Source of the DNA: Myxococcaceae bacterium JPH2
Lineage (GTDB): Bacteria > Myxococcota > Myxococcia > Myxococcales > Myxococcaceae
Assembly (NCBI GenBank): GCA_016458225.1
Contig: JAEMGR010000003.1
Span: 1 to 64,000 of the forward strand
Direction: 5' to 3'
DNA length: 64,000 nucleotides
Each line of letters opens with the position of its first letter. Positions within the stretch are counted from its first letter, which is position 1. This document shows positions 36,491 through 40,985 of the stretch, one piece after another. The position numbers and the translations under genes were made by a program. Under the pieces are notes generated by a model. That model saw only the letters and a list, made by a program, of their open reading frames with translations. It made no database searches and was not told the DNA's origin.

Positions 36491-37302
36491 ACGAACTGGC
36501 CGGTGCCCTGGGGACACTCATCCCCCTGGGCCTGCTCTTCCTGCTGTTCCTCTCCGGCGTCCGCATCGTCAACGAGTACCAGAACGGCGTCGTGTTCCGG
36601 CTCGGGCGCTACGTGGGCCTCAAGCGCGCGGGCTTCCGCTGGCTCATCCCCTTCATCGAGCGCATGGTCATCATCGACCTGCGCACCGTCGCGCGAGACG
36701 TGCCGCCCCAGGACGTCATCACCCGCGACAACGTGAGCGTGAAGGTCAGCGCCGTCGTCTACTTCCGCGTCATCCACGCGGAGAAGGCCGTCCTCCAGGT
36801 GGAGGACTATCTCTACGCGACGAGCCAGCTCGCGCAGACCACGCTGCGCGCCATCCTGGGACAGGTGGAGCTGGATGAGCTGCTGTCCCAGCGGGACCGC
36901 GTCAACCGCGAGCTGCAGAAGGTGCTCGACGCGCACACCGACCCGTGGGGCATCAAGATCTCCAACGTGGAGGTGAAGCACATCGACCTGCCCGCGGAGA
37001 TGCAGCGCGCCATCGCTCGCCAGGCGGAAGCCGAGCGCGAGCGCCGCGCGAAGATCATCGCCGCCGAGGGCGAACATCAGGCCGCCGAGCGACTCGCGCA
37101 GGCCGCCGACGTGCTCAGCCGCAACCCCGCCTCCCTCCAGCTGCGCTATCTGCAGACGCTGGTGGAGATCACCGGCGGCGGCAACCACACCATCCTGCCC
37201 ATCCCGCTCGAGCTGCTGAACGCGCTGGGCACCGCGGTGGAGCGCCGCGCACGCGAGGACGGCCCCGTCACTGCCGAGGCGGCTCCTCCAGCGCCTCATT
37301 GA
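36487..37302 (+). CDS. Stomatin/SPFH-domain membrane protein
   Basis: 271 residues, ATG overlapping the nfeD stop (ATGA). One N-terminal membrane helix ([17 protein letters not shown]) precedes the SPFH domain ([20 protein letters not shown], then [20 protein letters not shown]). A helical, Ala/Glu/Arg-rich part follows ([20 protein letters not shown]), then the hydrophobic C-terminal patch ([16 protein letters not shown]) that NfeD proteases cut in archaeal homologues. It should oligomerise at the membrane and organise lipid or protein domains. Its 3' end overlaps the convergent DUF2721 gene by 35 bases. Confidence 0.93.
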
Positions 37303-37765
37303 GCATCTCCAACTGCTCCAGGCGGATGGCCCGCCGCCCGAGCCGCAGGGACGCCAGCGCGAACACCGCCACCCCCCCGAGCAGGCCCACGCCCACGGAG
37401 AACGTCAGCACCGGCATGACCTCCGGGACGTTCACGTCGGCGCGCTTGAGCAGGTACAAGAGCGACGTGGCCACGAAGGACAACAGCGCCGCATAGGTGC
37501 AGTTCATCCCCATCGCGAGGATGCCGTGGCGCCGGTCCAGGATGGCCACCTCCTCGCGCAACAACTGACGGCGAGGATGCCCCTCCGGCAGCGAGCGCCA
37601 CTCCCGCGCCATGTCTCGGATGCGCGCCGTCATCCGCGCGATCTGATTGTCCAACCCCGTCGCCAGGATGCCGCAACCCGACACCATCACCGCCGGCGTC
37701 ACCGCCGCGCCAATCAGCCGCAGCGACGCCAGGTCCATCAACTCGACCGCCGTGCTTCCCGCCAT
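37268..37765 (-). CDS. DUF2721-family membrane protein
   Basis: 165 residues, ATG at 37765 with GGGAG 4 bases upstream. Three hydrophobic segments: near residues 15-35, 85-108 and 115-137. Between the first two is a charged loop typical of DUF2721 ([18 protein letters not shown] then [15 protein letters not shown]). The family is of unknown function. The gene faces the MerR/vWA control region and its end overlaps the stomatin gene. Confidence 0.85.
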
Positions 37766-37809: not shown

Positions 37810-37832
37810 ACTCGCCACCATTTATGGCGAGT
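37810..37832. repeat. 8-bp inverted repeat in the MerR/DUF2721 spacer
   Basis: ACTCGCCA (37810-37817) and TGGCGAGT (37825-37832) form a perfect 8-bp repeat around ccattta. It lies immediately before the first TTGACA of the MerR promoter region and between two divergent genes, so it is a candidate operator. Confidence 0.5.
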
Positions 37833-37881
37833 TGACACTGTCGTCTTGACAGTCGAACTGTCGAGTCTTACTGTCTGGGGT
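37832..37881 (+). promoter_or_regulatory. MerR-operon promoter with four copies of ACTGTC
   Basis: Two perfect TTGACA hexamers (37832-37837 and 37846-37851) lie here. The second is followed after 17 bases by TACTGT (37869-37874) as a -10 candidate. ACTGTC occurs at 37837-37842, 37857-37862 and 37870-37875, and inverted (GACAGT) at 37848-37853. The middle pair makes the palindrome GACAGTCGAACTGTC. Transcription from this promoter would begin at or beside the GTG start codon (37882), implying a leaderless message. Promoter and operator assignments are inference from sequence. Confidence 0.6.
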
Positions 37882-38385
37882 GTGAGCACGCGCAAGACAC
37901 AGACAGAGTGGAAGCTGGCGGAGCTGGCCGAGGCGGCGGAGGTCTCGCCGCGCACGGTCCGCTACTACGTCCAGCGCGGGCTGCTCTCCGCGCCGCCCTT
38001 CCGAGGGCCGGACACGGTGTACACGGAGGAGCACCTGGTGCGGCTCAAGGCCATCCGGGTGTTGCAGGCGCGCTTCCTTCCGTTGGACGCCATCCAGGCG
38101 GAGCTGACGCGGCTGACGCCCGAGGCGCTGCGGACGCTGTCGGAGTCGGACGCGACGACCACGCCACCGCACGTGCCGGCCTCGCATCCGATGACGGGCG
38201 CGTCCAAGCCGCACGCGCCACCGCGCCGGGGAGACCGGAAGGACGAGGGCGTGCGTTACCAGCGCTGGGAACTCGCGCCCGGGCTGGAGCTGCAGCTGGC
38301 GGACGGAGCGGAGCCAGGAGTTCGGGCGCTCGCGGAGCGGGTGCGCGCCTTCATCGAAGAGTCCCAGGAAAGGGAGAAGCCATGA
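37882..38385 (+). CDS. MerR-family transcription regulator
   Basis: 167 residues from the GTG at 37882; the frame extends to 37846 but that part lies on the promoter. The winged helix is WKLAELAEAAEVSPRTVRYY, followed by the MerR signature QRGLLSAPPFRGPDTVYTEE and dimer helix to about residue 85. A disordered Pro/Thr/His linker leads to a C-terminal block (YQRWELAPGLELQLADGAE) that resembles a small ligand- or partner-binding tail. No Cys for metal sensing. The start has no ribosome site and may be leaderless. Its stop overlaps the ATG of the VIT/vWA gene, so the two act together. Confidence 0.85.
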   Translation: MSTRKTQTEWKLAELAEAAEVSPRTVRYYVQRGLLSAPPFRGPDTVYTEEHLVRLKAIRVLQARFLPLDAIQAELTRLTPEALRTLSESDATTTPPHVPASHPMTGASKPHAPPRRGDRKDEGVRYQRWELAPGLELQLADGAEPGVRALAERVRAFIEESQEREKP

Positions 38386-40985
38386 ACGAGCAGTGTGGAT
38401 GCGGGCTGTTCACGCGCGACGGGGCGCAGGTTCCACTTCAGGGCGTCGAGGTGACGGGAGAGCTGCTCGGAGGCCATGCGCGGGTGCGCGTGCGCCAGCG
38501 CTACCTCAACACGGAGTCGCGGCCGGTGGAGGCCGTGTACACGTTCCCGCTGCCCTCCGAGGGCACGCTCACCGCCTTCTCCATGACGTGCGCCGGGCGC
38601 CGCGTGGAGGGCATCGTGAAGGAGCGCGAGGAAGCGTTCCGCGCCTATGACTCGGCCATCACCTCCGGGCACGGCGCGGCGCTGCTGGACGAGGAGCGCC
38701 CCAACGTCTTCACCGCGCAGGTGGGCAACCTGCTCCCCGGCGAGGAGACGGTGGTGGAGGTGGAGTTCCTTCAGGCCATCACCGCGGAGGAGGGCAGCGT
38801 GCGGTGGATGCTGCCCACGCTGGTGGCGCCTCGCTACATCCCCGGCGGACCCCAGGGCCACCGCACCGCGCATGGCGTGGCCGACCCCACGGTCCGCGTG
38901 CCGGACGCGGATCGCATCACGCCGCCCGTGGGCGACGCCCGCTATGGCCTGAAGCTGGACCTGCTCGTCGACGTGGGCTCCGAGGTCGTGGTGGAGAGCC
39001 CCTCGCACCAGCTGGCGCTCACCCGCGAGGGGACTCGCGTGCGCGTGGGCTTCTCGCAGGGCGAGGTGGCGTTGGACCGCGACTTCGTGCTGACGCTGCG
39101 CCACCCGGATTCGAACGCGATGCTCACGCCCGTCGTCGCGCACCGCTCGGGCACGGGCCCCGGCACGTTCGCGCTCACGGTGGTGCCGGACCTGCTCACG
39201 CTCGCCGCCGCGCCGCCGCGCCAGGAGGTGGTGTTCCTGGTGGACACCTCCGGCTCCATGGATGGTGAGAGCCTGCCCCAGGCCCAGGCCGCGCTGCGGC
39301 TGTGCCTGCGCCACCTGCGCGAGGGTGACCGCTTCAACGTCATCGCGTTCCAGAGCAGCTTCCGTGGCTTCAAGCCCGAGCCCGTGCCCTTCACCCAGCG
39401 CACGCTGGAGGAGGCGGACGCGTGGGTCGCCAAGCTGCACGCGGACGGTGGCACCGAGCTGCTCGCGCCCATGGTGGCGGCGACGAAGGCCGTGCCGGAC
39501 GGCGTGGTGGTGCTGCTCACCGACGGACAGGTGGGCAACGAGGCGGAGATCCTCAACGCCGTGCTGAGCGCGCGGAAGACGGCGCGGGTGTACTCGTTTG
39601 GCATTGGCACCAACGTGAGCGATGTGTTGCTGCGCGACCTCGCGCGCCAGACGGGCGGCGCGGTGGAGTTCATCCATCCGGGCGAGCGCATCGACGACAA
39701 GGTGGTGGCGCAGTTCGCCAAGGCGCTCGCGCCGCGCGTGACGGACCTGGAGGTGCAGTTCGATGGCGTGCAGGCCAACGAGCTGTCTCCCACGGACCTG
39801 CCCCCGCTCGTGGATGGCGTGCCCTGGACGCTGTTCGGCCGCTACGACGCGCCGGGCCTCGGCTCGGTGCGAATCAAGGGGCGCTCGGGCCGCGAGAGCT
39901 TCTCGCTCACCGTGCGCTTGGACCTGCCGGCCACGTCCGACCGTCCGGCGGTGGAGAAGTTGTGGGCCGCCGAGCGCATCCGCGGTTGGGATGCGGCGGT
40001 GCTCACCGGCCGGCGCGCCCAGGCGATGAAGGAGCGCATCGTCCAGCTCGCGCTCGCGCACCAGATTGTCACGCGCCACACCTCGTTCGTGGTGGTGGAG
40101 GAGCGCGTGGGCGCGCGGCTCTCCACCGCGCAGCCCGAGACGCGCGTCGTCCCGGTGCACGCACCGGCCGGCTGGGCCATGTTCGGCGCGAAGAAGGACG
40201 AGGCCGCCGATGGAGGCCCTGGCATGGCGGTGGGCGGTGGCGGAAGCATGCGCAACCGAGGCGCCGTCTCCGGAGGTCCGCCGTCGGTCGCGATCGCCGC
40301 GGGCCCACCCCGCATGTCCTCCCCCATCACGGGCAGCTTCGCCGCGGTGCCTCCTCCTCCGAGCGCACCCGCGCCCGCGCCCATGATGGACGCGATGGAG
40401 ATGGAGCGCGCCGCGCCCATGCGCAAGGAGCTCGAGGAGGCGCGCCGTGCGCCCAAGCTGCTCTCCAAGAAGAAGGGCGGTCCGCCGCCTGGAGCGCTCG
40501 CGCAGGACAAGGCCGCGTGGCCCGCGCCGATGGAGGTGGCGCCGTCCGATGACGACGCCTTCTCCGAGCCGATGGAGTCGCTGGCGCAGGGCGAGGGCGG
40601 AGAAGACGGGGTCGTCGCGCTGCTCGGGCGACAGCTCGCCAATGGCCTGTGGGCCGGAACCGGCACGGGCGCGGAGCCCGTGCGTCAGGCCCGCGCCACC
40701 GCGCTGGTGCTCCTGGAGCTGCTGCGCCAGGGCGTCACCAGTGGCCACGCGCTGCACGGCGCGCAGGTGAAGAAGGCGGTGGACGCGCTGCTCGCGCTCG
40801 TCGCGCAGCTCAGCGGTGAGCCCGCGGTGGCGGAACTCGCGCTGGGTGTCGCCTGGCTGGTGGCCGCGGGTCCGCGCACGCGAGGCCGCATCGAGCAGGC
40901 CGCGAAGCCGCTCAGCGGCCTCTCCGGCCGGATGGGCAACGAGGTGGCCCTGCGCGAGCACGTGGACGCGCTCTCCACGCGCTAG
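38382..40985 (+). CDS. VIT and von Willebrand factor A domain protein
   Basis: 867 residues; ATG at 38382 overlaps the MerR stop, with GGGAG upstream. Residues ~5-135 form a VIT domain (VRVRQRYLNTESRPVEAVYT, then EERPNVFTAQVGNLLPGEE). Residues ~280-455 are a vWA domain with a full MIDAS: FLVDTSGSMDG, the Thr in GGTELLAPM and the Asp in LLTDGQVGNEAE. A beta-rich region, a Pro/Met/Gly-rich linker (~600-700) and a helical C-terminal domain follow. No signal peptide, so it may stay in the cytoplasm, unlike animal ITI chains. Metal-dependent protein binding is expected; partner unknown. Confidence 0.9.
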   Translation: MNEQCGCGLFTRDGAQVPLQGVEVTGELLGGHARVRVRQRYLNTESRPVEAVYTFPLPSEGTLTAFSMTCAGRRVEGIVKEREEAFRAYDSAITSGHGAALLDEERPNVFTAQVGNLLPGEETVVEVEFLQAITAEEGSVRWMLPTLVAPRYIPGGPQGHRTAHGVADPTVRVPDADRITPPVGDARYGLKLDLLVDVGSEVVVESPSHQLALTREGTRVRVGFSQGEVALDRDFVLTLRHPDSNAMLTPVVAHRSGTGPGTFALTVVPDLLTLAAAPPRQEVVFLVDTSGSMDGESLPQAQAALRLCLRHLREGDRFNVIAFQSSFRGFKPEPVPFTQRTLEEADAWVAKLHADGGTELLAPMVAATKAVPDGVVVLLTDGQVGNEAEILNAVLSARKTARVYSFGIGTNVSDVLLRDLARQTGGAVEFIHPGERIDDKVVAQFAKALAPRVTDLEVQFDGVQANELSPTDLPPLVDGVPWTLFGRYDAPGLGSVRIKGRSGRESFSLTVRLDLPATSDRPAVEKLWAAERIRGWDAAVLTGRRAQAMKERIVQLALAHQIVTRHTSFVVVEERVGARLSTAQPETRVVPVHAPAGWAMFGAKKDEAADGGPGMAVGGGGSMRNRGAVSGGPPSVAIAAGPPRMSSPITGSFAAVPPPPSAPAPAPMMDAMEMERAAPMRKELEEARRAPKLLSKKKGGPPPGALAQDKAAWPAPMEVAPSDDDAFSEPMESLAQGEGGEDGVVALLGRQLANGLWAGTGTGAEPVRQARATALVLLELLRQGVTSGHALHGAQVKKAVDALLALVAQLSGEPAVAELALGVAWLVAAGPRTRGRIEQAAKPLSGLSGRMGNEVALREHVDALSTR

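Follow-up and report, generated by a model that had tools for sequence, protein, structure and literature searches.

The canonical activators of the MerR family (MerR, CueR, SoxR and BmrR) combine a wHTH domain with a palindrome near the promoter spacer; the spacer of MerR-activated promoters is 19 to 20 bp long, and shortening it abolishes activation (PMC9909328). In type V-K CRISPR transposons the MerR-type repressor CvkR is made from a leaderless mRNA (PMC9938897); its operator is AnnACATnATGTnnT, its partners are cas12k and tnsB, and its setting is a cyanobacterial mobile element. The light-dependent MerR repressors CarA/CarH of Myxococcus and other bacteria block RNA polymerase at a -35 element that is embedded in repeat units (PMC9304148); CarH operators consist of 11-bp direct repeats in tandem, and a B12-binding domain is part of these proteins. 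BldC, which has 68 residues and no C-terminal part, binds direct repeats as multimers and controls entry into development (PMC5859096). The locus described here shares some features with each of them, and the best reading of its sequence is a further non-canonical MerR repressor with a leaderless message and an operator arranged in its own way.

The window, that is, the whole 64-kb stretch of DNA that was analysed, belongs to a 9.0-Mb Myxococcaceae genome, and its nearest relative among the genomes compared is Citreicoccus inhibens (MerR identity, 92%). A MerR-family regulator gene (37882 to 38385, plus strand; 167 amino acids, no cysteine; Pfam MerR_1, E = 4.1e-15) without a Shine-Dalgarno signal is followed by a VIT-VWA gene (38382 to 40985, plus strand; 867 amino acids; Pfam VIT, E = 8e-31, and VWA_3, E = 3e-21), which has a strong Shine-Dalgarno signal and whose ATG overlaps the MerR stop codon (ATGA). 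The family and also more remote relatives keep this gene order, and the pair is found in Myxococcus xanthus too; our literature search for the MerR/VIT-VWA pair found no paper describing it. A divergent DUF2721 gene (37268 to 37765, minus strand; Pfam DUF2721, E = 8e-22), which is the neighbor in most family members, shares the intergenic region with the MerR gene. Its end at 37268 overlaps tail to tail, by 35 bases, with a plus-strand Band-7 gene that ends at 37302. The VIT-VWA protein scored 396 bits against NCBIfam TIGR03788 (marine sortase target), which is below the cut-off of 552, so this name is not transferable to it.

The first-pass annotation had described the segment upstream of the MerR gene as a repeat-dense operator, and the elements that it listed are all in place: two exact TTGACA boxes (37832 to 37837 and 37846 to 37851), four copies of ACTGTC (at 37837, 37857 and 37870, and inverted, as GACAGT, at 37848), the palindrome GACAGTCGAACTGTC (37848 to 37862), and TACTGT (37869 to 37874) ahead of the GTG codon (37882 to 37884). 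TTGACA occurs three times in the window, twice in this segment; ACTGTC/GACAGT occurs 9 times, compared with 25 in shuffles, 4 of the 9 lying within 39 bases here, and across the 64-kb window none of the other rare hexamers is so clustered. The perfect 8-bp inverted repeat that had been reported just upstream is present as well (ACTCGCCA-N7-TGGCGAGT, 37810 to 37832, with 8-bp arms and a 7-base loop), and in shuffled sequence the probability of an inverted repeat with 8-bp arms at this position is about 0.001. However, it is not conserved beyond the genus, and we rejected it as a part of the operator because only the window species and its sister have it; the counterpart in the sister (L002) has 9-bp arms and a different loop, and none of that kind was found in 54 other upstream regions. 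This inverted repeat may belong to the divergent DUF2721 gene.

We then aligned 60 distinct orthologous Myxococcaceae promoters on the start codon, with gaps disallowed; they come from related species, and counts of promoters or genomes do not represent independent events. The -35 element TTGACA (37846 to 37851, plus strand) is found in 60/60 promoters, and the spacer between it and the -10 element is exactly 17 bp in 60/60. The -10 element (37869 to 37874, plus strand) reads TACTGT in 55/60, TAGTGT in 2, TACAGT in 2 and TATTGT in 1, and its end lies 7 nt before the start codon in 58/60 and 6 nt in 2/60, which agrees with the -10 candidate near the GTG that had been proposed. A search of relatives for the hexamers had also been suggested, in which a lack of conservation would have spoken against the reading; when it was run, 60/60 Myxococcaceae promoters proved to keep the units, the spacing of 17 bp and the distance from the -10 to the start codon. 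The first TTGACA (37832 to 37837, plus strand), missing at that place in the sister species and the other orthologs, is probably not the working -35; it was rejected in this role because it is not conserved beyond the genus. Since TTGACA and TACTGT look like promoter boxes, they could in principle be -35/-10-like words that gathered by chance in DNA of high GC content, but conservation in relatives refutes this account: the boxes are conserved in 60 distinct promoters, the exact ACTGTC/GACAGT unit occurs on average 2.45 times per 120 bp against 0.04 in shuffled sequence (56 orthologous 120-bp upstream regions), and a TGTC in the spacer is conserved, which leaves this account extremely improbable. 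The repeats are real and not due to chance. It seems that they form the core promoter and operator of the MerR gene, with a sigma70-type promoter (TTGACA, 17 bp, TACTGT), as one part of the explanation that we favor.

TTGACA and TACTGT are promoter boxes themselves, so a part of their conservation needs no operator. The spacer TGTC (-23 to -20) is present in 56/60 promoters, with a per-base conservation of 56 to 58/60, and a sigma70 promoter requires no particular bases inside its spacer. Together with the GACA of the -35 element as left half-site, it makes up the putative operator palindrome GACA-N7-TGTC, which overlaps the -35 and the spacer and occurs in 56/60 orthologs; a wider form, TnnACA-N7-TGTnnA, occurs in 35/60. 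Another putative operator unit, ACTGTC (37870 to 37875, plus strand), overlaps the -10 and follows the preceding ACTGTC at a distance of 13 bp, and TGTC is found here in 44/60 orthologs. The upstream putative unit at -45 (ACTGTC, 37837 to 37842, plus strand) is conserved in part of the family only, with TGTC here in 14/60 orthologs; other species have GACA units at -48, -62 and -76, in 14-bp steps, instead of it. Upstream of the MerR start in L010, L017, L018 and L019, from several genera, GACAGT-type units recur every 14 bp, where the window has a single ACTGTC. Judged from these alignments, the candidate operator has a rigid core and a variable upstream arm.

Such a layout invites comparison with CarA/CarH, with which the locus shares a MerR-type DNA-binding domain, TnnACA-type units embedded in the -35 TTGACA, a presumed repression by RNA polymerase block and an operator layout that varies among myxobacteria. 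The spacing is different: whereas CarH operators are direct repeats of 11 bp, here the GACA peaks lie at -34, -48, -62 and -76 (14 bp) and those of TGTC at -23 and -10 (13 bp), so that steps of 13 to 14 bp are combined with a palindrome.

The start codon is GTG in 53/60 orthologs and ATG in 7/60, at the same place. Between -36 and this codon, 13/60 orthologs, M. xanthus included, have a stop in the same frame, and no alternative start (ATG, GTG or TTG) occurs within 40 codons after the window GTG; the in-frame stops upstream and the lack of a later start codon fix the start of MerR. Thus the in-frame TTG at 37846 was rejected as a start, because a stop codon separates it from the GTG in those 13/60 orthologs, and starts downstream of the GTG were rejected because there are none within these 40 codons. 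With a -10 that ends 6 to 7 nt before the start codon, transcription is expected to begin on or beside the first base of the codon. A pyrimidine usually precedes the transcription start site (the Y/R rule), and one is found just before the start codon in 60/60 promoters; from this base and the -10 spacing, the predicted start is 37882 (plus strand), the G of the GTG, with 37881 possible.

The ribosome-binding site, which had been described as absent before the GTG, was assessed by anti-Shine-Dalgarno energy in the proper window. MerR averaged -0.44 and the VWA gene that shares its operon -7.54, and values of -4 or lower were reached by 0/45 MerR starts versus 45/45 VWA starts, which bears out the absence. 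In a survey of leaderless bacterial genes, the rule was a -10-like signal around 12 bp upstream (PMC3160421), applied here as a -10 box about 10 to 12 nt before the start codon. Both marks of a leaderless gene, the position of the -10 (60/60 promoters) and the lack of a Shine-Dalgarno signal (0/45), are seen here, and we infer that the MerR message is leaderless, its 5' end being placed by promoter spacing. A promoter further upstream would instead give an untranslated region and initiation independent of a Shine-Dalgarno signal, and the additional TTGACA at 37832 could serve it. That box is not conserved, the Shine-Dalgarno signal that would serve a leader is missing, and the best sigma70-like site lies 6 to 9 nt from the start in 60/60 core promoters and ranks first at this distance in 12/14 distant promoters; such a leader is therefore quite unlikely.

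The distant promoters just mentioned come from the proposed search for clusters before MerR-vWA pairs in relatives, which revealed the leaderless layout again outside the family and outside the class. MerR-VIT-VWA pairs with TTGACA and GACAGT- or ACTGT-type units are present in further families of this order (L022-L026, L029, L099/L111) and, elsewhere in the phylum, in further classes (L113, L114, L116), and in these distant pairs the -10 ends 6 to 9 nt before the start codon. L118, read by eye, has TTGACA, 17 bp, TACAGT, 6 nt and GTG. In L119 the leaderless layout comes at second rank only, and the VIT-VWA gene was undetected in the examined stretch. The distant L044 keeps the palindrome as ACTGTC-N3-TTGACAGT-N3-ACTGTC; a clear leaderless -10 was looked for upstream of its MerR gene and was not seen. 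In L021 (MerR 56% identical, VIT-VWA 63%) the operator motif is wholly missing upstream, for which a natural loss or a rewired promoter are candidate readings. In another family of the order, a different MerR gene comes after a haemolysin III-like gene (L028, 752 to 800; L108, minus strand, about 518; L109, about 378); the promoter there is related, TTGACA...TGTAACGGTTATAG-gTGTC, but has a Shine-Dalgarno-like signal and a leader; this is possibly a second MerR system that reads GACA/TGTC.

The MerR protein itself belongs to the family by sequence (Pfam MerR_1, 56 bits against a cut-off of 21.6) and by fold matches, which are MerR proteins. In the 167-residue protein Pfam found nothing beyond MerR domains, and the B12-binding domain that CarA/CarH carry was not found. 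All NCBIfam equivalogs scored far below cut-off (the best 26.9 versus 151 bits), so that the protein falls into none of the named metal or redox MerR groups. The model, of moderate confidence (pLDDT 72, pTM 0.47), comprises a wHTH and, beyond a disordered linker, a hairpin and helix that make up a small C-terminal part; its top fold match is CvkR, weakly (E = 1.7e-3), and a sequence search of solved structures returned generic MerR proteins only.

Whether the product represses or activates its operon had been left open, and the spacer favors repression and disfavors activation, because it is 17 bp long versus 19 to 20 bp at MerR-activated promoters. A classical MerR would always be bound to the promoter and, with its effector, would activate by twisting an over-long spacer; the wHTH domain and an operator palindrome that overlaps the spacer agree with it. 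However, the spacer is already optimal at exactly 17 bp in 60/60 promoters rather than 19 to 20 bp, as DNA distortion would need, the palindrome is centered at 37855, off the spacer middle at 37860, and the protein contains zero cysteines and matches no metal/redox MerR model above cut-off. Canonical activators also lack a counterpart of the extra direct-repeat units over the -10 and upstream that are seen at the present locus. We regard classical activation as unlikely; a 17-bp spacer in 60/60 points to a promoter that is active without help and that the MerR protein closes.

Conservation alone cannot name the binding protein, and the operator could be genuine but read by another regulator, the MerR protein having other targets. 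The occurrence of the motif across genomes bears on this question. The own genome was searched by pattern, with up to 3 mismatches allowed in the composite motif, and even so the motif was found at one site only, before the MerR gene; a wider regulon was rejected, as there is no other match in this genome at 3 or fewer mismatches. At 2 or fewer mismatches it is present in 41/76 family genomes (G004 has a second match, at the end of a short contig), and a reversed control gave 0 matches. All 41 carry a strong match to the window MerR, and wherever both were located the two are adjacent, the motif directly before the gene; in other words, 41/45 genomes with a strong MerR match have the motif versus 0/31 without (Fisher p about 3e-17, the genomes being related). 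As in an autoregulatory operon, the putative operator lies beside the regulator gene and is specific for it, at one site per genome, as expected of an autoregulator with a local role and not of a global regulator. Another regulator would find some support in L021, which has MerR and VWA without the motif, but a global regulator would hardly have one site per genome, the motif goes together with the MerR gene (41/45 versus 0/31), and the unit tracks the MerR lineage into other families and classes, so this reading is improbable.

The reading that we prefer, with a probability of about 0.65, is that MerR and VIT-VWA form a two-gene operon, leaderless and negatively autoregulated by its MerR, and that this segment serves as its promoter and operator. 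Transcription would start on the GTG or one base before, giving a MerR message without leader that is translated without a Shine-Dalgarno signal, while the VWA gene would use a strong Shine-Dalgarno signal of its own, its translation probably being coupled to that of MerR. As a dimer or short multimer, the MerR protein is predicted from the repeats to bind the GACAGT/ACTGTC units, contacting GACA-N7-TGTC across the -35 and the spacer, one more unit at the -10 and the variable upstream units. Occupation of both promoter boxes would exclude RNA polymerase and result in negative autoregulation, and a signal may relieve the repression, possibly via the VIT-VWA partner or the short part at the C terminus.

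The likeness to CvkR covers the MerR wHTH, a small protein without known effector domain, the leaderless mRNA, a 15-nt palindrome with ACA/TGT cores and a 17-nt spacer at one CvkR target promoter, repression being a prediction here. Unlike CvkR, the present locus has several units in both orientations before its own gene, and a VIT-VWA partner. With BldC it shares a MerR-type DNA-binding domain on repeated short units (PMC5859096), whereas the site here is a single one per genome, before the regulator's own gene.

Leaderless genes have been described as rare in Gram-negative bacteria (PMC9938897), and here the layout is kept at base-pair precision across a family and is seen again in further classes of Myxococcota. 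The putative operator, now defined, offers a handle on a widespread MerR/VIT-VWA pair; a Cappable-seq start-site data set exists for M. xanthus (PMC8844925). A MerR gene of this layout and a VWA gene of the ordinary route in one operon also make a natural pair for testing why leaderless starts persist. It is possible, though on balance doubtful, that in the phylum Myxococcota selection keeps a leaderless start fused to the operator of this MerR autoregulator and a strong Shine-Dalgarno signal on its partner, so that with two initiation routes the regulator:VIT-VWA ratio shifts with the ribosome population or initiation factors. If so, this ratio could shift, for example, in starvation or development.
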